Assembly: GCA_020059465.1 (NCBI GenBank)
Contig: JAGVBZ010000009.1
Coordinates: 1-64,000, forward strand
Direction of reading: 5' to 3'
DNA from: Brevinematales bacterium
GTDB taxonomy: Bacteria; Spirochaetota; Brevinematia; Brevinematales; GWF1-51-8
DNA: 64,000 nt
The position numbers and the translations under genes were made by a program. A model generated the notes under the pieces. That model saw nothing but the letters and a program-made list of their open reading frames with translations, was not told the origin of the DNA and did not search any database. Below are positions 25,280 through 57,324 of this stretch, one piece after another (positions within the stretch are counted from its first letter, which is position 1; each line of letters opens with the position of its first letter).

Positions 25280-26022
25280 CCTCCCGTTACGCCGCAAGCA
25301 AAAAAGCGCTGATACTGCTGGATTACGACGGAACCCTTGTCCCGTTCAGCGACAGGCCTGAAAAAGCCTCGCCGGATAATTCGCTGTATTCAATCCTGAA
25401 ACAACTTGCGGAAATTCCCGGTACCGATACTGTGATTATCAGCGGAAGAGAACGCGGGAGTATCGGCAAGTGGTTTGAGGGGATACCTATCAACCTGATG
25501 GCTGAGCACGGAGGATGGTTTTTCCCAAAGGGTGAGAAGGAGTGGCGTTCCGGGGCGCATTCCTCCACCGAATGGAAACAGGAAATCCGTCCCGTACTGG
25601 AACGATTCGTGCTCCGTACGCCGGGGTCGTTTATCGAGGAAAAAGACTTTTCGCTTGTCTGGCATTACCGTAAGTCCGACCCGGAGCAGGGGGTCATACG
25701 CGCCAGCGAACTGAAAAATTCATTAATGAGCCTGACGCAAAACCTGAATATCGGGATACTCGAGGGCAATATGATCATCGAAATCAAGGACACCGGTATT
25801 TCGAAAGGGCAGGGCTGCAGGTTCTGGGTCTCGCGCGATCAGTACGATTTTATCCTTGCCGCCGGCGACGATCTGACCGACGAGGATATGTTCGGTGTGT
25901 TGGACGAAAATGCGGTGACTGTGAAGGTGGGCTACGATTTTTCCCGCGCGAAATTCAATGTCGCAAATTACAAAGATATCAGGGGGATTCTATCCCGTCT
26001 GATAGAATCAAAAAAGAAATAA
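25264..26022 (+). CDS. otsB: Trehalose-6-phosphate phosphatase (start unclear; frame-broken fusion with otsA?)
   Basis: HAD-type phosphatase that releases trehalose. HAD motif I is ALILLDYDGTLVPF at about 25306-25347, followed by VIISGRERGSIGKWF, LMAEHGGWFF and the motif IV acidic block AAGDDLTDEDMFG. The open frame begins after a TGA at 25261. It contains no ATG, GTG or TTG before a GTG at 25432, which lies downstream of motif I. A start that preserves the active site must therefore be non-standard (an ATA at 25276 overlaps the otsA stop), or the domain is reached by a -1 shift from otsA, or an indel has split a fused gene. The catalytic residues are intact, which argues against long decay. 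Confidence 0.85.
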   Translation, partial: GNREIASRYAASKKALILLDYDGTLVPFSDRPEKASPDNSLYSILKQLAEIPGTDTVIISGRERGSIGKWFEGIPINLMAEHGGWFFPKGEKEWRSGAHSSTEWKQEIRPVLERFVLRTPGSFIEEKDFSLVWHYRKSDPEQGVIRASELKNSLMSLTQNLNIGILEGNMIIEIKDTGISKGQGCRFWVSRDQYDFILAAGDDLTDEDMFGVLDENAVTVKVGYDFSRAKFNVANYKDIRGILSRLIESKKK

Positions 26023-42830: not shown

Positions 42831-42998
42831 CCGCTGCGCGGGCTATTCCGTTATCTCAAAACCCCTTATATTTTTCCAATACCTACCCTGTCTGATATAT
42901 AATTAATTACCGCGAAATAACCGTAAGAAATATCTCTTGATATTGTAACTATGCGCTGAACGGCGAGTATATATAGTCGAGGAAAACGGAAACCCGGG

Positions 42999-43544
42999 AT
43001 GAATATGGATGAAGAAAAGTACTATCTGACTCTGGCAAAACAGGGCGACTACCAGGCATTCGAACGGATCGTGAAAACGTACCGTGACCGAATCTATGGG
43101 ATCATTTTCCTCAATCTCAGGAACCGTGAGGACACGGAGGACGTGTTTCAGGACGTGTTTTACAAGGTATTTGTGAATTTAAAAAGTTACGACAGCGGAC
43201 GGAAGTTTTTTACATGGCTGTACACGATCACGCTGAACACGGTCTATACGTTCATACGGAAACGGAAACGCCGCGCGGCTGAGATCGCGGTGGAGTTTAT
43301 CGACGATATTCAGGTAGAGGGAGGAGAGGATTTCACCCGGGAAGATAAGATGGCGCTTTTACAGGCGTTGGACGGCCTCCCGGATGACGAACGCCAGTTG
43401 ATCATCCTCCGTTATATGGAGGCGGCGGGGATCGAGGAGATCGCGGAGATTACGGGTCTGAGCGAATCGAACGTAAAAGTCAAGCTGCACCGTATCCGCA
43501 AACGGATTTATGAGATGATGGAGGGACGAGATGGAAAAGGATAA
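42999..43544 (+). CDS. ECF-subfamily RNA polymerase sigma factor
   Basis: 181 residues with only regions 2 and 4. Region 2 includes GDYQAFERIVKTYRDRIYGI and TEDVFQDVFYKVFVNLKSYD, then FFTWLYTITLNTVYTFIRKR. Region 4 has LPDDERQLIILRYMEAAGIE and GLSESNVKVKLHRIRKRIYE. It overlaps the next gene by 14 bp, the usual position for an anti-sigma factor, and that gene encodes a single-pass membrane protein. Envelope genes downstream (44.0-46.3 kb) may be its targets or operon partners. The upstream 170 bp hold no obvious -35/-10 pair that I trust. Confidence 0.93.
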   Translation: MNMDEEKYYLTLAKQGDYQAFERIVKTYRDRIYGIIFLNLRNREDTEDVFQDVFYKVFVNLKSYDSGRKFFTWLYTITLNTVYTFIRKRKRRAAEIAVEFIDDIQVEGGEDFTREDKMALLQALDGLPDDERQLIILRYMEAAGIEEIAEITGLSESNVKVKLHRIRKRIYEMMEGRDGKG

Positions 43545-43983
43545 ATCGGGAGAGTTACGTCTGACTGTCCGGGTACCGGAAGGGATCGAACTGAGAACGA
43601 TGGACACGATCAGGAAGCGGATGGCCGCGAGAGTCCTGCTCCGGAATATCCTGCGTTATGCGGCGGGTGCGGTCGCGGCGCTGGCGGTGGTGCTTACCGT
43701 CTGGTTCGGCGTACTCCCTCATGACAGCACGAAGATCGTCCTGATATACGCTTACCACGGTGAAAAGAAAGTCGAGGTAGCGGGCAGTTTTAACGGGTGG
43801 GACGAACGGATCGCGATGAAGCATGACCTGAAGAATGATGTATGGACGGCGGAAATCACGGTCGAAGGGAAGGGAGTATTCGAATACCAGTTTATTGTCG
43901 ACGATGTGATCTATACCGCCGGACAGGCGGAATACAAGGTGAAGGATGAACAGGGTAACGAAGTCGGGATTATGTCCCTATAG
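43531..43983 (+). CDS. Single-pass membrane protein with CBM48-like glycogen-binding domain, putative anti-sigma factor
   Basis: 150 residues. A basic cytoplasmic segment (residues 1-40) and one transmembrane helix (about 42-62) are followed by an extracytoplasmic domain, KKVEVAGSFNGWDERIAMKH then WTAEITVEGKGVFEYQFIVD. This has the pattern of the AMPK/CBM48 glycogen-binding family, including the GSFNGW turn. It overlaps the ECF sigma gene by 14 bp, so an anti-sigma role is the natural reading, although the N-terminal part has no recognised zinc anti-sigma motif. A carbohydrate-sensing or glycan-binding domain on the outer side would be an unusual input. Confidence 0.8.
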   Translation: MEKDKSGELRLTVRVPEGIELRTMDTIRKRMAARVLLRNILRYAAGAVAALAVVLTVWFGVLPHDSTKIVLIYAYHGEKKVEVAGSFNGWDERIAMKHDLKNDVWTAEITVEGKGVFEYQFIVDDVIYTAGQAEYKVKDEQGNEVGIMSL

Positions 43984-44007: not shown

Positions 44008-44592
44008 ATGAAACAGGTATTAATAGCAGTATTGGCGGTTTTTATTGCCGGAATGGTATACGCGCAGGATGCGGCGGCCGAATCTGAGGCGTTTAAGGCG
44101 GCCACTCAGGAAGAGATCCAGCTTACCGCGGCGCTTTCGCAGAATATGGGCGAGGTAACCGCGTTGAAGGTGATGAACCAGCTCAAACTGAACGCGAAAT
44201 CGCAGAACCAGTATAAGGAAACCCTTCAATTCATGTACCGTTATATGAAAAAGAACGGCAACGTGAAGGACGCCGATACCGCCCTTGCGGTGGGCGAGAC
44301 CTACGCGAAGAACTGCGGGGCGATTGCGGGCACCGCGCATGAGAAACAGGTAATGATGATGAGCATGGTGCAGAAAATGGTTGCGAATCAGATGAAAAGC
44401 AAGAACGGCGGCGACGCCGTGAAGAATCAGGAAAAGATAAAGATGCAGACCCAGGCGATGATGAAGACCAAGCTCCAGGAAAAAGGGATGAGCGGAGAGG
44501 GCGCGATGTACAAGTACCAGTACCGTTACCAGTACAAATGGGCGTCCATGCAGGATATGAAAAAAGCTGTTCCGGTCACACCCAAACATTAG
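44008..44592 (+). CDS. Exported protein of unknown function, helical, Met/Gln/Lys-rich
   Basis: 194 residues with AGGAGGA before the ATG and a signal peptide ending MVYAQ (about residue 20). The mature protein is helical with a C-terminal tail rich in Met, Gln, Lys and Tyr (MYKYQYRYQYKWASMQDM). No known family. It is 24 bp behind the CBM48-type membrane protein and 9 bp before the next gene, so it belongs to the sigma-factor operon. Role not known; periplasmic location inferred. Confidence 0.7.
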   Translation: MKQVLIAVLAVFIAGMVYAQDAAAESEAFKAATQEEIQLTAALSQNMGEVTALKVMNQLKLNAKSQNQYKETLQFMYRYMKKNGNVKDADTALAVGETYAKNCGAIAGTAHEKQVMMMSMVQKMVANQMKSKNGGDAVKNQEKIKMQTQAMMKTKLQEKGMSGEGAMYKYQYRYQYKWASMQDMKKAVPVTPKH

Positions 44593-44601
44593 GATAAGAG
44601 T

Positions 44602-45261
44602 ATGATGCGAAAAATAGGAAGGATAATCCCTTTCATATTGCTCTCCATTAGTATGGCCTATGGTTATCAGGCGGAATTAGCCCCCGTTCTCAACGGATGG
44701 GGGCTTTCCCCGTCTGAAACGGCGGTGATCGAGGCGATATTCAGGGACGGTATCGAGAAGAAAGTCGAGCCGAAGGAGATGCTCGATTCGCTGAAGGAAG
44801 CGAAACTGAAAAAGTTTTCGTTCTACGACTCGTCGATCGAACTGATGAAGAAGGTCAAACTGATCGCCGAGATCGGGAGTCTCGATATTCCCTATGCCGA
44901 TGACGGCGAAATGAAGAAATACGCTTATTACCTCGGACAGATGCTGAATATTCCGCAGATGGAGAACCTTTACCGGGAGATGAAGGAGAAAAAAATGCCG
45001 AAAACACAGGTGAAATCTGTTTATGAACTGATGTTTTTTCTGAATTCCAAAGGGGTGCCTGTGTCGGAGAATTATCAGGCGGTTTATCTGATGGTCAAGA
45101 CCGGACAGGCGGGGCCGGGCGATCTCGAACAGGTAAAAAATGCCGTCCTGAAATCGGCAAATCTTAAAAAATCGCCGCCCGAAATCGTAAGTCTGATAAA
45201 AAACGGGCTTCTCAAGGGAAAAACCTTAAAAGTGATCCTGTACGAGATGGAAAAGAAATAG
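44602..45261 (+). CDS. Exported helical protein of unknown function
   Basis: 219 residues with a signal peptide (IGRIIPFILLSISMAYG). The body is helical with repeated short patterns such as GLSPSETAVIEAIFRDGIEK, VEPKEMLDSLKEAKLKKF and SPPEIVSLIKNGLLKGKTL, perhaps three copies of a related helical hairpin. Third in the operon headed by the ECF sigma factor, 10 bp before a barrel gene. No function is recognised. Start could be the second ATG at 44605. Confidence 0.7.
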   Translation: MMRKIGRIIPFILLSISMAYGYQAELAPVLNGWGLSPSETAVIEAIFRDGIEKKVEPKEMLDSLKEAKLKKFSFYDSSIELMKKVKLIAEIGSLDIPYADDGEMKKYAYYLGQMLNIPQMENLYREMKEKKMPKTQVKSVYELMFFLNSKGVPVSENYQAVYLMVKTGQAGPGDLEQVKNAVLKSANLKKSPPEIVSLIKNGLLKGKTLKVILYEMEKK

Positions 45262-45271
45262 GAGGACCTAT

Positions 45272-46273
45272 ATGAAAGGGAAAATAATTATTATCGGGTT
45301 AATACTCGGTTCGCTGATAGGGGCCAACGTTTTATGGGGCGAATCGTTTTTCTTTAAGGCGGGGGCCGGAGCGGGGTACGATTCGAACCTTTTCTCCGAC
45401 CGTGACGCGATCGCCGGGATAATGGGCACGTTAAAAATACAGGGCGAGGGAATATTCGGGGAGGAACCGCTCCAGTTCTACGGGGGACTCGACCTATACG
45501 CCGAATTGAACCAGTACTATACGTTGCTTGACGGGAAGGCCGGCGCCGGGCTGATCATCAAACCGAATATCTACAGCATAATCAAAGCGGTCGGCTCCTA
45601 CCAATACTATATGAATGTTTTCGGCGCCGTGGAGGCGATGGCCGAGTTCAAGGGCGACCTGACGCCCGGACTGACAGGCGGGGTGAAGTACGAGCTTAGG
45701 TCGCAGGGCTCGCTTTCCGGCTCCACAAACGAAACTTATATCAATCACGGCTTCAAAGCGGGGGTGTTTTTCGATATTACCGATTTCCTGCTGGCCGATA
45801 TCAGTGTGAACGGCGGACTGCGGACATATACCGAGGTGATACCGTCGGCGCCCCTCGGGAATAATATGATCGGCGGGACTGCGGCGTTTATCCTGATCCC
45901 CGACTATAACACCGATATAAAGGCGGGGTATTCGTTCGCGAATTACAGTTCTTCGCGGGGCGGGCTGACCGTGTTTTCCACTACCAATATGCTGTACACC
46001 TATAATAACGCGACCCTGCATTCTGTGTTCGCGGAATTGGATTTCGAGATTTCGCTGGAATGGTCGGTTTCGCTTCTGGGAAGGGTCGATTTTATTTATC
46101 TTCCCGACGCCGCGAAAAGCGAGACCGCATACATCGCAGGGATACGGACGGATATATTTATCGACCCGTCGGTGAAGCTGGAAATCCCTGTGGTATTCTC
46201 CGGCCTTGCGAGCGAGGTCGCCGAGAACTACAATAAGCTTCGGGTGAATTTCGATATTAATTTCCTTCTATAA
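45272..46273 (+). CDS. Outer-membrane beta-barrel protein
   Basis: 333 residues. AGGAGG before the ATG and a signal peptide ending LWGES. Many amphipathic strands with aromatic girdles follow, for example FFFKAGAGAGYDSNLFSD at the mature N-terminus (a pattern of barrel proteins with a GYDSN start) and a final strand LRVNFDINFLL. It is the last gene of the sigma/CBM48 operon and is followed by a terminator. It could be a porin or an exporter barrel; no specific family is assigned. Confidence 0.75.
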   Translation: MKGKIIIIGLILGSLIGANVLWGESFFFKAGAGAGYDSNLFSDRDAIAGIMGTLKIQGEGIFGEEPLQFYGGLDLYAELNQYYTLLDGKAGAGLIIKPNIYSIIKAVGSYQYYMNVFGAVEAMAEFKGDLTPGLTGGVKYELRSQGSLSGSTNETYINHGFKAGVFFDITDFLLADISVNGGLRTYTEVIPSAPLGNNMIGGTAAFILIPDYNTDIKAGYSFANYSSSRGGLTVFSTTNMLYTYNNATLHSVFAELDFEISLEWSVSLLGRVDFIYLPDAAKSETAYIAGIRTDIFIDPSVKLEIPVVFSGLASEVAENYNKLRVNFDINFLL

Positions 46274-48233: not shown

Positions 48234-49301
48234 ATGAACGCCTTCCGTATAATAATCATTTCAGTAGTTTCCATAATTTCGCTCGCCGGGTGCGGGGAAA
48301 AATCGCCTGCCGGCGAAACATCGATAGTAATCGCTTTCGCGGGCGATACGTTTTTTGACAGGCGGCTCCTCCCGGGATTTAAGAACGGTGGCGATCTCTT
48401 CCGCGACGTGCGCATCGCTGTGGCGGACTCCGACTTCTTTATCGTCAATCTTGAGACCCCGATATCCTCGGGCGGTACGCCGTACGATAAACCGTTCGTA
48501 TTCCGCGCGAGTCCCGATAAGGCGGAGTTGCTCACCAACGCCGGGATAAACGTGGTTGCGCTCGCGAATAATCATATGATGGACTACGGCCTGAAGGCGT
48601 TGATAGATACAAGGGATATTCTTTCCAAACACGGGATAGCGTATACCGGCGCAGGAACTAACCTCGCGCATGCCTCGATGCCTGTCATTCTGGAGAAGAA
48701 CGGCATCAGGATCGGGTTCCTTTCGTTCGGGCTGAACGGCCCCCTCGACCTGATGGACGCCACACCCAAACGGGAAGGGACTGCGCCGATCCATCTCAGC
48801 AATATCCTGCCTATTCTTAAAGCGCTCCGTCCGCAGGTCGATTTTCTCATTGTCGCGCTGCATGACGGCGAGGAGTATTTCGAGGTGCCTATTCTGCGGG
48901 TGCTGACGAATTACCGCGCGATTATCGACGCGGGGGCTGATCTGATAATCGGGCATCACCCGCACATCCTCGAGGGAATCGAGAAACGCCCGAACGGGGT
49001 GATTTTCTACAGTATGGGAAATCTCCTGTTCGACCAGAAATACGCGGCCACAGTACAGACGATGATCGGAAAGGTCAAGCTGACCAAGAAAGCGCAGAAA
49101 ATTACCGCGGAGTACTCGATTATTCCGCTGATCCGGAACACGGCGACTTTCATACCCGAGTTTGCGAAGGAGAAAAACGCCCTCGCGGTCGTCAGCCAAC
49201 TAAAAAAGATCAGCGTTCCGTTAGGGGGGATGCAGCCCGTATTTCAGAAACTGACCAATCAAAAATATATTGTCTATAGTGTGACATGGACAAACGGATA
49301 A
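48234..49301 (+). CDS. CapA-family (PGA_cap) lipoprotein, copy 1
   Basis: 355 residues. The signal peptide ends in lipobox SLAGC. The metallophosphatase-like CapA domain follows: VIAFAGDTFFDRRLLPGF, FFIVNLETPIS, VVALANNHMMDYGLKALIDT, LIIGHHPHILEGIEKRPNGV and IFYSMGNLLFD. The family is named for poly-gamma-glutamate capsule genes, but many members act elsewhere and the reaction is unproven. No other capsule genes (pgsB/C) are near. A second member at 53.4 kb shares the layout. The next gene starts 12 bp after the stop. Confidence 0.92.
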   Translation: MNAFRIIIISVVSIISLAGCGEKSPAGETSIVIAFAGDTFFDRRLLPGFKNGGDLFRDVRIAVADSDFFIVNLETPISSGGTPYDKPFVFRASPDKAELLTNAGINVVALANNHMMDYGLKALIDTRDILSKHGIAYTGAGTNLAHASMPVILEKNGIRIGFLSFGLNGPLDLMDATPKREGTAPIHLSNILPILKALRPQVDFLIVALHDGEEYFEVPILRVLTNYRAIIDAGADLIIGHHPHILEGIEKRPNGVIFYSMGNLLFDQKYAATVQTMIGKVKLTKKAQKITAEYSIIPLIRNTATFIPEFAKEKNALAVVSQLKKISVPLGGMQPVFQKLTNQKYIVYSVTWTNG

Positions 49302-53362: not shown

Positions 53363-54406
53363 ATGATTCGCGGTATATTTCTGCTCGGATTTCTATTCTT
53401 TCCCGGGTGTACGGGGACAGAACAAACCCCAAAACCGGGAAGAGCAACGATCTGTTTCGCGGGCGATATCACGTTCGACTACGCTGTAAAAAAGACTCTT
53501 GCCGCAAACATCGACCCGTTCCGTGAAGTGAAATCGTTTGTTTCGTATGCAGACCTTGCGGTGTTTAATCTTGAGACGGCGGTCACCACCAACACTATTC
53601 AGGTAGTGAAGTCGTTTAATTTTAAAAGCCCGCCGGAAGTGCTTTCACTGATCACTAACGCCGGGTTCGATATCGCTACGATTGCGAACAACCATTCGAT
53701 GGACTACGGCTGGGCGGGGCTGAACGAGACTATCAATGCATTAAAAGACTATAAAATAGAATACGGCGGGGCGGGGAGCAACCTCGCGGCGGCGTCTGTA
53801 CCGCTGATAAAGGAAGTGAACGGGATAAAAATCGCATTCCTGTTTTACGGTTATGTCAATCCCCCGTCGCTCTATGCGTTAACAAACCGGCCGGGGATAG
53901 CGCCGCTCGACAGTAAGGCGATGACCGAAGCGATTGCCGCCGCGAGGACGAACGCCGATTTCGTGGCTGTGAGCGTGCATTGGGGCGACCAGTATGAGGA
54001 TTACCCCAACCATTTTCAGGTGACGCTCGGGCATGCGCTGATCGACGCGGGAGCGGACCTGATTATCGGACATCATCCTCATGTCCTCGAGGGTATCGAG
54101 TTCTACGGGAACGGCGCGATCTTCTACAGCATCGGGAACTTCGTATTCCCGCAATGGGCGGATATCAGGATGATGTATTCAGCGCTGGTATGGGCCGTAC
54201 TGGAAAAGAAGGACGGAAAGATTATAGCGAAGTATGAAGCAATGCCGCTCATGCGCGATTATGAATACTATTATCCCGCTCGTCCATCGGAAGAATTGGA
54301 AAAAACGATTATTGCTCATTGGATAAATATCTCAAAGAAAAAAATTGAATTTCGGTACAGTGATATTGAATGGGCGCCTTTATTTGATATTGTAAAAAAG
54401 GAGTAG
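53363..54406 (+). CDS. CapA-family (PGA_cap) lipoprotein, copy 2
   Basis: 347 residues with GGGAGAGAAG before the ATG and lipobox FFPGC. The CapA blocks are ICFAGDITFDYAVKKTL, DLAVFNLETAVTTN, IATIANNHSMDYGWAGLNET, DLIIGHHPHVLEGIEFYGNG and IFYSIGNFVFPQ. Compared with copy 1 at 48.2 kb the metal-site pattern is the same (GD, NLE, NNH, HWGD, GHHPH) but overall identity is modest. It is followed 9 bp later by a PrsW-like protease gene. Probably anchored on the periplasmic side; the substrate is not known. Confidence 0.92.
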   Translation: MIRGIFLLGFLFFPGCTGTEQTPKPGRATICFAGDITFDYAVKKTLAANIDPFREVKSFVSYADLAVFNLETAVTTNTIQVVKSFNFKSPPEVLSLITNAGFDIATIANNHSMDYGWAGLNETINALKDYKIEYGGAGSNLAAASVPLIKEVNGIKIAFLFYGYVNPPSLYALTNRPGIAPLDSKAMTEAIAAARTNADFVAVSVHWGDQYEDYPNHFQVTLGHALIDAGADLIIGHHPHVLEGIEFYGNGAIFYSIGNFVFPQWADIRMMYSALVWAVLEKKDGKIIAKYEAMPLMRDYEYYYPARPSEELEKTIIAHWINISKKKIEFRYSDIEWAPLFDIVKKE

Positions 54407-55680: not shown

Positions 55681-57324
55681 CTATTTCAAGTTATAAAGGA
55701 AATAAGTCTTGTCCGCCGCCAGCCCGGTATTCTTGAAGTTCAAGTCTACCGTCTCATTTTCGTCGCCGAGATTTGCGACTACTATAATAGTATCGTCGAG
55801 ACCGTAACGCAGGAAGGCCAGAATATGGGAATTGCCGGTAGTCACCAGGACCAAATCCCCGCGCTTCAACGATGTCTCGGACTTGCGCAGGGCGATCAGC
55901 TTCTTATAGGTGTTCCAAAGAGAATCGGGGTCTTTAATCTGCGCCTCGACATTGTTTCCCTTTCCGCCGGATGTGTAGACCGATATCCACGGCTTCCCGG
56001 TGGTGAACCCGTTCGCCTTACTTTCATCCCACTTCATCGGATTATACTGGCCCTGAAGCGCATACTCCGTGCCGTGATAAACATAAGGGGTACCGGGGAA
56101 TGTCATCAACAGCGCTGCGGCGGCTTTCAAACGGTCGTCGCCCTTGCCGATAGCCTCGACCAGGCGCGGGACGTCATGGTTCTCGAGAAAGTTCGCGAAA
56201 TATATTTGCGGTATGTCCTTCGGACGTTTATTGAATATATTCAGTATCCCGTACTTAGAACCGCTCTTGAGCGCGTCCCGGACAGCGTACATCAGCCCGA
56301 AACTGAAACACTGGTCGAATCCTCCGCCCCCCATATAATACTTTGCCACAATCGAATCGGATTCCCATACCTCGCCGACACTCATCGCGTCCGGCTTCGT
56401 TTTCTTGATATTCGCCTGATACTCTTTCATATAAGCGAGAGTCGATGCGGTATCCGCCTGCAGCGGATGCGGGCCTTCCTCGATCAGGTAACGGATCGCG
56501 TCGAGACGGTACCCGTCCACACCCATATCGAGCCAATGCGACGCTATTTTCAGGAACTCCTTGCGGACTTCGGGATTGCTGAAATTGAACTCGCCGCCCC
56601 ATGTGGCGTAAAAGTATTCCTGCCGGATCTTGTCGTAGTGCCATACCTTATCGGGGCTTCCGCCGCCCCACGGCATCTGCCATTTCCCGGCGGGGATCGT
56701 CTTCGACCAAATATACCAATCCTTATATTTAGGGTCTTTTTTCTCCGACGCTTTAAACCATTCGCTGTTCGTCGCGCCGTGATTGATGACCATATCCATA
56801 ATGACCTTCACGCCGATGGAATGAGCTTTAGCCATATATTTCTTGAAATCGTCGATCGTGCCGTAATCGGGGTCGGTCGCATAGTAGTCAATCGCCTCGT
56901 AGCCGAGCGCGCGCCCGATACCGCCGTCATGCAGGCTCTTAAAGACCGGCAGCGTCCATATCGCGGTCGCGCCGAGATTGGTGATATAGTCGAGTTTTTC
57001 GACCAATCCGTTAAAGTCGCCCACACCGTTACCGTCGCTGTCGTAATAACTGCGGACATAGAGCTGATAGACCACCGCGTCCTTCCACCATCCCTTCGAT
57101 TGGTCGACCTTCGTCGGATCGGAGAAGTTCGATATTTTGATAATCTTCACCTCGTAGGGCTTCAGTTCGAGCGAGTAGTTGGAAAAACTCTGCGGTGTGA
57201 GGTCTGCGATATTGCGGTATACGAATCCCGCGGGGTTCGGGGGCAGGTCTGGACGGGTCTGCCCGCACGAGACGGTCAATGCGAATAATAATACCGCCGG
57301 TAATATGGAAAAAACTTTTTTCAT
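55681..57324 (-). CDS. Alpha-amylase family lipoprotein (GH13)
   Basis: 547 residues. Signal peptide with lipobox LTVSC, so the enzyme is tethered to a membrane facing outward. GH13 blocks are all present: VVYQLYVRSYYDSDGNGVGD, VIMDMVINHGATN, GVDGYRLDAIRYLIEEGPH (nucleophile Asp), SVGEVWESDSIVAKYY (acid/base Glu) and FLENHDVPRLVEA. It resembles the alpha-glucosidase/neopullulanase end of the family. It likely trims malto-oligosaccharides outside the cytoplasm, feeding TreS and GlgX (26-31 kb) inside. Monocistronic with GGAGCG before the ATG. Confidence 0.92.
   Translation of the reverse strand: MKKVFSILPAVLLFALTVSCGQTRPDLPPNPAGFVYRNIADLTPQSFSNYSLELKPYEVKIIKISNFSDPTKVDQSKGWWKDAVVYQLYVRSYYDSDGNGVGDFNGLVEKLDYITNLGATAIWTLPVFKSLHDGGIGRALGYEAIDYYATDPDYGTIDDFKKYMAKAHSIGVKVIMDMVINHGATNSEWFKASEKKDPKYKDWYIWSKTIPAGKWQMPWGGGSPDKVWHYDKIRQEYFYATWGGEFNFSNPEVRKEFLKIASHWLDMGVDGYRLDAIRYLIEEGPHPLQADTASTLAYMKEYQANIKKTKPDAMSVGEVWESDSIVAKYYMGGGGFDQCFSFGLMYAVRDALKSGSKYGILNIFNKRPKDIPQIYFANFLENHDVPRLVEAIGKGDDRLKAAAALLMTFPGTPYVYHGTEYALQGQYNPMKWDESKANGFTTGKPWISVYTSGGKGNNVEAQIKDPDSLWNTYKKLIALRKSETSLKRGDLVLVTTGNSHILAFLRYGLDDTIIVVANLGDENETVDLNFKNTGLAADKTYFLYNLK

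Follow-up and report, generated by a model that had tools for sequence, protein, structure and literature searches.

An ECF sigma factor gene and its probable anti-sigma partner with a CBM48-fold outer domain in a conserved operon of Brevinematales

The motif Hx3Cx2C serves as the signature of zinc-containing class I anti-sigma domains and is borne by about 48% of the membrane-bound representatives (ASDIs), but class I domains without zinc exist as well (PMC7406223). The two-helix, zinc-free domain of CnrY is sufficient for the inhibition of an ECF sigma factor (PMC4598750, PMC7406223). Carbohydrate-binding anti-sigma factors are exemplified by RsgI of Clostridium thermocellum, whose outer sensors comprise CBM3, CBM42, PA14 and GH10 domains (PMC12203970). 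Here we compare with these systems a gene pair from the first 64,000 nucleotides of contig JAGVBZ010000009.1 of a Brevinematales bacterium, a stretch that is referred to as the window throughout. In our judgment the pair probably constitutes an ECF sigma/anti-sigma switch at the membrane, which is equipped with a CBM48-fold sensor and governs an autoregulated envelope operon.

The sigma factor gene and its overlapping partner

The gene pair and the parts of its second product are located as follows:

42999..43544, + strand: ECF sigma factor with regions 2 and 4 (Pfam Sigma70_r2 and Sigma70_r4_2; NCBIfam TIGR02937)
43531..43983, + strand: predicted membrane anti-sigma factor with an outer CBM48-fold domain (overlap with the sigma gene, recurrent pairing, zinc motif in kin)
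43531..43659, + strand: basic N-terminal segment in the cytoplasm (residues 1-43) that includes the juxtamembrane motif PEGIELRTMDTI (motif common to kin; zinc ligands absent)
43660..43716, + strand: single transmembrane helix, residues about 44-62 (hydropathy, model)
43726..43980, + strand: CBM48/AMPK1_CBM-fold domain, residues about 66-150 (Pfam, AF2, Foldseek, residue tally)

The first open reading frame encodes 181 aa with matches to Sigma70_r2 (5.4e-14), Sigma70_r4_2 (3.3e-16) and TIGR02937 (3.7e-30), all above the cut-off. The product contains sigma regions 2 and 4 only, which is the hallmark of ECF (group 4) sigma factors. The second frame encodes 150 aa and overlaps the first by 14 bp. 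A preliminary description of this DNA had placed an ECF gene and an overlapping neighbor at 42999-43983, and the profile matches from Pfam and NCBIfam agree with it. It had also described the second product as a basic segment, one helix and an outside domain with the AMPK/CBM48 pattern, and this layout is borne out. Residues 1-43 carry a net charge of about +5, the only hydrophobic stretch begins at residue 44 (hydropathy maximum 2.29), and the AF2 model consists of one long helix (19-60) that is followed by strands alone. Charge, hydropathy and model thus agree on a cytoplasmic N-terminus, one transmembrane helix and an outer sensor. The sensor scores above the curated cut-offs of PF16561 AMPK1_CBM (4.3e-10; 40.1 vs. 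26.8 bits) and PF02922 CBM_48 (26.1 vs. 22.4 bits). The structure prediction, in which a different fold would have spoken against the assignment, returned the beta-sandwich of CBM48 in a medium-confidence model (10-row alignment, mean pLDDT 71.6, ten-residue blocks of the domain between 71 and 89), and Foldseek ranks CBM48 domains highest for it, namely those of SEX4, SNF1/AMPK beta and CBM48-esterases.

Recurrence of the pair and the case for an anti-sigma factor

About 390 genomes of Spirochaetota were searched with family profiles, and the inspection of the best full-length matches resulted in a set of 31 genomes, namely 30 Spirochaetota from 13 families and one metagenome-assembled genome (MAG) of a PVC phylum. 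An ECF gene is located directly upstream of the TM-CBM48 gene on the same strand in all 31 of them; because the loci were selected for the best scores against a profile that started from the window gene, this count attests to the stability of the family and is no frequency among CBM48 proteins at large. The two genes usually overlap or are separated by at most about 110 bp, and an apparent gap of 306 bp at one locus (L100) adjoins an incomplete sigma frame. Within the phylum of the PVC MAG the pair is present in 10 of 241 genomes including the MAG itself, so that the listing of genomes with an ECF gene before a TM-CBM48 gene, which the preliminary description had proposed as a check, comprises all 31 inspected genomes and nine more from the PVC phylum. 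No ECF neighbor was present beside the secreted double-CBM48 proteins and GH13 enzymes that also match the profiles. The trees of the sigma and the anti-sigma proteins have their main clades in common and are broadly congruent.

Several other CBM48 proteins were encountered in these genomes. Six Spirochaetota loci (L012, L016, L018, L019, L050, L052) encode a protein of about 220-270 aa that has a signal peptide and consists of two AMPK-like CBM48 domains in tandem, with no enzyme attached. Family f20 has another CBM48 gene, with a lipoprotein-like product, immediately behind the anti-sigma gene (L039, 1125-1478, - strand; L044, 1123-1458, - strand). Small PVC-phylum proteins of about 93-149 aa (L114-L124) harbor a single CBM48 domain with no sigma gene on the same strand beside them, and several have a lysine- and alanine-rich N-terminus.

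The canonical zinc motif Hx3Cx2C is present in 10 of the 31 family members, within the roughly 90-120 residues that precede the membrane helix. One zinc-type member has suggestive matches to Pfam zf-HC2 and NCBIfam "antisigma" (2.5e-9), both below the cut-off. The lineage of the window has a short cytoplasmic segment of about 43 residues that is devoid of zinc ligands, and Hx3Cx2C, the criterion for the class I zinc domain, is absent from the window protein. The juxtamembrane motif P-x-G-L-x-x-R-V-M-x-x-I, a pattern chosen post hoc, is found in 14 of 31 sequences compared with a mean of 3.0 over 2000 shuffles (largest value 9). Its copy in the window is a candidate sigma-binding helix and may be the counterpart of the last, sigma2-binding helix in anti-sigma domains.

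The partners of ECF genes in operons are sometimes targets of the sigma factor. The product of 43531-43983 might accordingly be a membrane protein with no other tie to the sigma factor than a common operon, and the short N-terminus without the zinc motif in the lineage of the window would fit such a role. We regard it as very improbable, because the gene has a fixed position right behind the sigma gene in every relative, ten relatives bear the canonical anti-sigma motif, the trees of both partners are broadly congruent, the N-terminus is cytoplasmic according to its charge, and a zinc-free domain of two helices suffices in the case of CnrY (PMC4598750, PMC7406223). The reading of the product as a single-pass anti-sigma factor paired with the ECF sigma factor is hence well supported by its kin.

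The outer domain and the glucan genes of the window

The preliminary description had proposed a sigma circuit that reads alpha-glucan outside the cytoplasm. Asn150 belongs to the glucan contacts of AMPK. For a residue tally 40 proteins were aligned on AMPK beta1, whose sequence and numbering as used here agree with PDB alignments. Mutants of the AMPK contacts W100, K126, W133, L146 and T148 exhibit a markedly reduced glycogen binding (PMC2642990). The equivalent of Trp100 is kept in 40 of 40 proteins and that of Lys126 in none (0/40). Position 133 is occupied by Trp in all ten PVC and all ten zinc-type members, and Asn150 is retained in all ten PVC members and in half of the zinc-type ones. 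In the window copy Lys126 is replaced by Gln, Leu146 by Gln, Thr148 by Asn and Asn150 by Val, and the equivalent of Trp133 is either Ile or Tyr due to an ambiguous alignment, so that Trp100 is the only one of the six contacts that persists. Its genus-mates likewise have Gln126, Tyr or Ile at the ambiguously aligned position 133, and Val at 150 with the exception of a His in L022. According to this pattern and the AMPK mutants, some family members may plausibly bind alpha-glucan, whereas the window copy is unlikely to do so.

The glucan genes on which the proposal had drawn are broadly as described:

23828: OtsA
25432-26022: at best a candidate OtsB, a 196-aa ORF
26033: GH13 (TreS-like)
28693: GlgX-like
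55681-57324: lipoprotein-like amylase

A circuit in which the outer domain binds glycogen or maltodextrin and the sigma factor controls the amylase, GlgX, TreS and further genes could invoke the true CBM48 fold with SEX4 and AMPK beta as closest structures, the retention of Trp100, Trp133 and Asn150 in the groups named above, and the existence of carbohydrate-binding anti-sigma factors such as RsgI (PMC12203970). It is nevertheless distinctly improbable given the replacements at positions 126, 133, 146, 148 and 150 and the effect of contact mutations in AMPK. The location of the genes argues in the same direction: OtsA, the TreS-like gene and GlgX at 23.8-30.8 kb and the amylase at 55.7-57.3 kb are 12-20 kb away from the pair, and dnaG, rpoD and lysS lie between the pair and the former three. 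Among 25 neighborhoods of the pair a GH13 gene is clear in only one (L066) and weak in one more (L022). The site TGTAAC-N17-GTATA, which precedes the sigma gene, was not found before the amylase, GlgX, TreS or OtsA genes, and a glucan regulon was rejected for this reason. In the lineage of the window, ordinary alpha-glucan binding by the CBM48 domain is improbable. The domain may instead recognize a different ligand, perhaps some other polysaccharide or a protein of the operon, or act as a structural stop.

The operon and its proposed circuit in comparison with known systems

The pair is preceded by a conserved site and followed by three genes:

42944..42971, + strand: putative ECF-type promoter, TGTAAC-N17-GTATA, roughly 55 bp upstream of the sigma start (conserved position)
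44008..44592, + strand: exported protein A, 194 aa with a signal peptide, no known family (same-place orthologues in relatives)
44602..45261, + strand: exported protein B, 219 aa, no known family (profile comparisons across families)
45272..46273, + strand: outer-membrane beta-barrel-like protein, 333 aa (conservation, AF2, Foldseek)

The site at 42944 is the sole exact match within the window and recurs with the same spacing and hexamers in three relatives (G001, G002, G003), where it likewise stands about 55 bp ahead of the sigma gene; a variant, TGTAAT-N17-TGTATT, precedes the sigma gene of L023/G008. With 2-4 exact sites per genome the counts do not exceed those of a backward-pattern control, and the evidence for a promoter is therefore the conserved position, which suggests an autoregulation of the operon. 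Besides the site of the sigma gene, one single exact site is conserved in three genomes (L127, L130 and L136 in G002, G001 and G000). It is located about 25 bp before a conserved gene for a lipoprotein of 491-494 aa, which is possibly a second target of this sigma factor or the target of another ECF sigma factor. An ad hoc promoter pattern, TGAAC-N15-GTC, was discarded; its four matches in the window are not clearly above chance and none precedes the sigma gene.

Orthologues of protein A occupy the same place in four relatives (G001, G002, G003, G008), and exported proteins that are alike in size and place are found there at other loci. Protein B is the most constant gene downstream of the pair. 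Profile comparisons link its groups across lineages, some directly (Bwin-Bf43 with E 5.9e-5, other pairs down to 4e-19) and others through intermediates, compared with E values of at least 0.1 against barrel controls. One or two exported proteins accompany the pair at the loci of its kin, and the barrel-like gene follows them in about half of the loci, among them L021, L022 and L023. Neither Pfam nor NCBIfam assigned a family above cut-off to protein A, protein B or the barrel. The AF2 model of the latter comprises a signal helix and 16 long strands (pLDDT 65.7), and all of its 50 best Foldseek matches belong to outer-membrane barrels or to the machinery that assembles them. In family f8 (L006/L024, L007/L055, L013/L056) the sigma gene comes after a gene for a small exported protein of 127-153 aa, in which RD or Q repeats abound in some cases; protein B is encoded behind the anti-sigma gene, and a barrel gene was not found at these loci. 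Two PGA_cap (capsule synthesis CapA-like) genes are located in the window, at 48234-49301 downstream of the cassette and at 53363-54406 about 5 kb further.

The barrel model has BcsC at Foldseek ranks 1-3 and a PgaA-type polysaccharide channel at rank 12, with PelBC and AlgE also in the top 25, a likeness to polysaccharide channels that provides a weak lead. The circuit might monitor a polysaccharide of the envelope or the extracellular space that is not an alpha-glucan, and the operon with its CBM48-fold sensor and barrel might serve the export or anchoring of this polymer. The matches of the sensor model to CBM48-fold domains of feruloyl esterases, including an entry in complex with xylobiose, and the two PGA_cap-family genes would be in line with such a function. 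We still consider it improbable, since general porins score nearly as high against the low-pLDDT barrel model, the operon encodes neither a glycosyltransferase nor a polysaccharide synthase, and the PGA_cap genes are not conserved beside the pair.

The switch that we favor would operate as follows. The 150-aa protein would use its cytoplasmic N-terminus to keep the sigma factor at the membrane until the periplasmic CBM48-fold domain meets a signal, which could be a ligand or a wrongly assembled component of the envelope. The sigma factor would then be released, with regulated intramembrane proteolysis as the probable route; the genome encodes an M50 site-2-type protease, as do 14 of 14 control genomes. 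Free sigma would transcribe its own operon from TGTAAC-N17-GTATA, and the outcome would be more sigma factor, anti-sigma factor, exported proteins and barrel-like protein. The short N-terminus of the window protein without the zinc motif weighs against this model, and so does a putative regulon that rests on one conserved upstream site.

The system would add the AMPK-type CBM48 fold to the known outer domains of anti-sigma factors. The cassette, a defined set of sigma factor, anti-sigma factor, two exported proteins and barrel, is common to many spirochaetes and some PVC bacteria, in which ECF circuits are little studied. A full-text search of a largely open-access literature collection retrieved no paper on CBM48-bearing anti-sigma factors. 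A bolder generalization strikes us as rather unlikely, namely that Spirochaetota and a PVC phylum share a widespread, undescribed class of ECF circuits whose anti-sigma factor reads an outside polysaccharide with its AMPK-like CBM48 domain and feeds back on an operon for a barrel and its exported partners, with a switch of the ligand in the lineage of the window.

The outer domain agrees with the glycogen- and starch-binding CBM48 modules of AMPK beta, SEX4 and LSF1 in its fold and its G-x-F-N-x-W core, but differs from them in its contact residues, as outlined above, and in belonging to a membrane-bound protein with a predicted location outside the cytoplasm. Class I zinc anti-sigma factors (ASDI/ZAS) are approached by relatives such as L035/L059, L036/L060 and L041/L065, which have Hx3Cx2C before the membrane helix, whereas the window's lineage combines about 43 zinc-free residues inside with a CBM48-fold outer domain. 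The cytoplasmic part would by analogy resemble the zinc-free two-helix part of the class II protein CnrY, which wraps the ECF sigma factor CnrH (PMC4598750), although CnrY lacks a CBM48 domain and acts in concert with CnrX, a metal sensor. With RsgI the protein has in common the single-pass architecture, a cytoplasmic N-terminus, putatively sigma-binding in the window protein, and an outer domain of a carbohydrate-binding type (PMC12203970). The partner of RsgI, SigI, represents a separate sigma70 class and not an ECF sigma factor; RsgI contains a periplasmic autocleavage domain, in contrast to the few residues between membrane helix and CBM48 domain in the window protein, which thus has neither a SigI-type partner nor this domain; and RsgI regulates cellulosome genes, whereas the window pair unites a CBM48-fold sensor with an operon for envelope proteins. 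Judged by analogy, RsgI is the nearest precedent in mechanism and represents another family.
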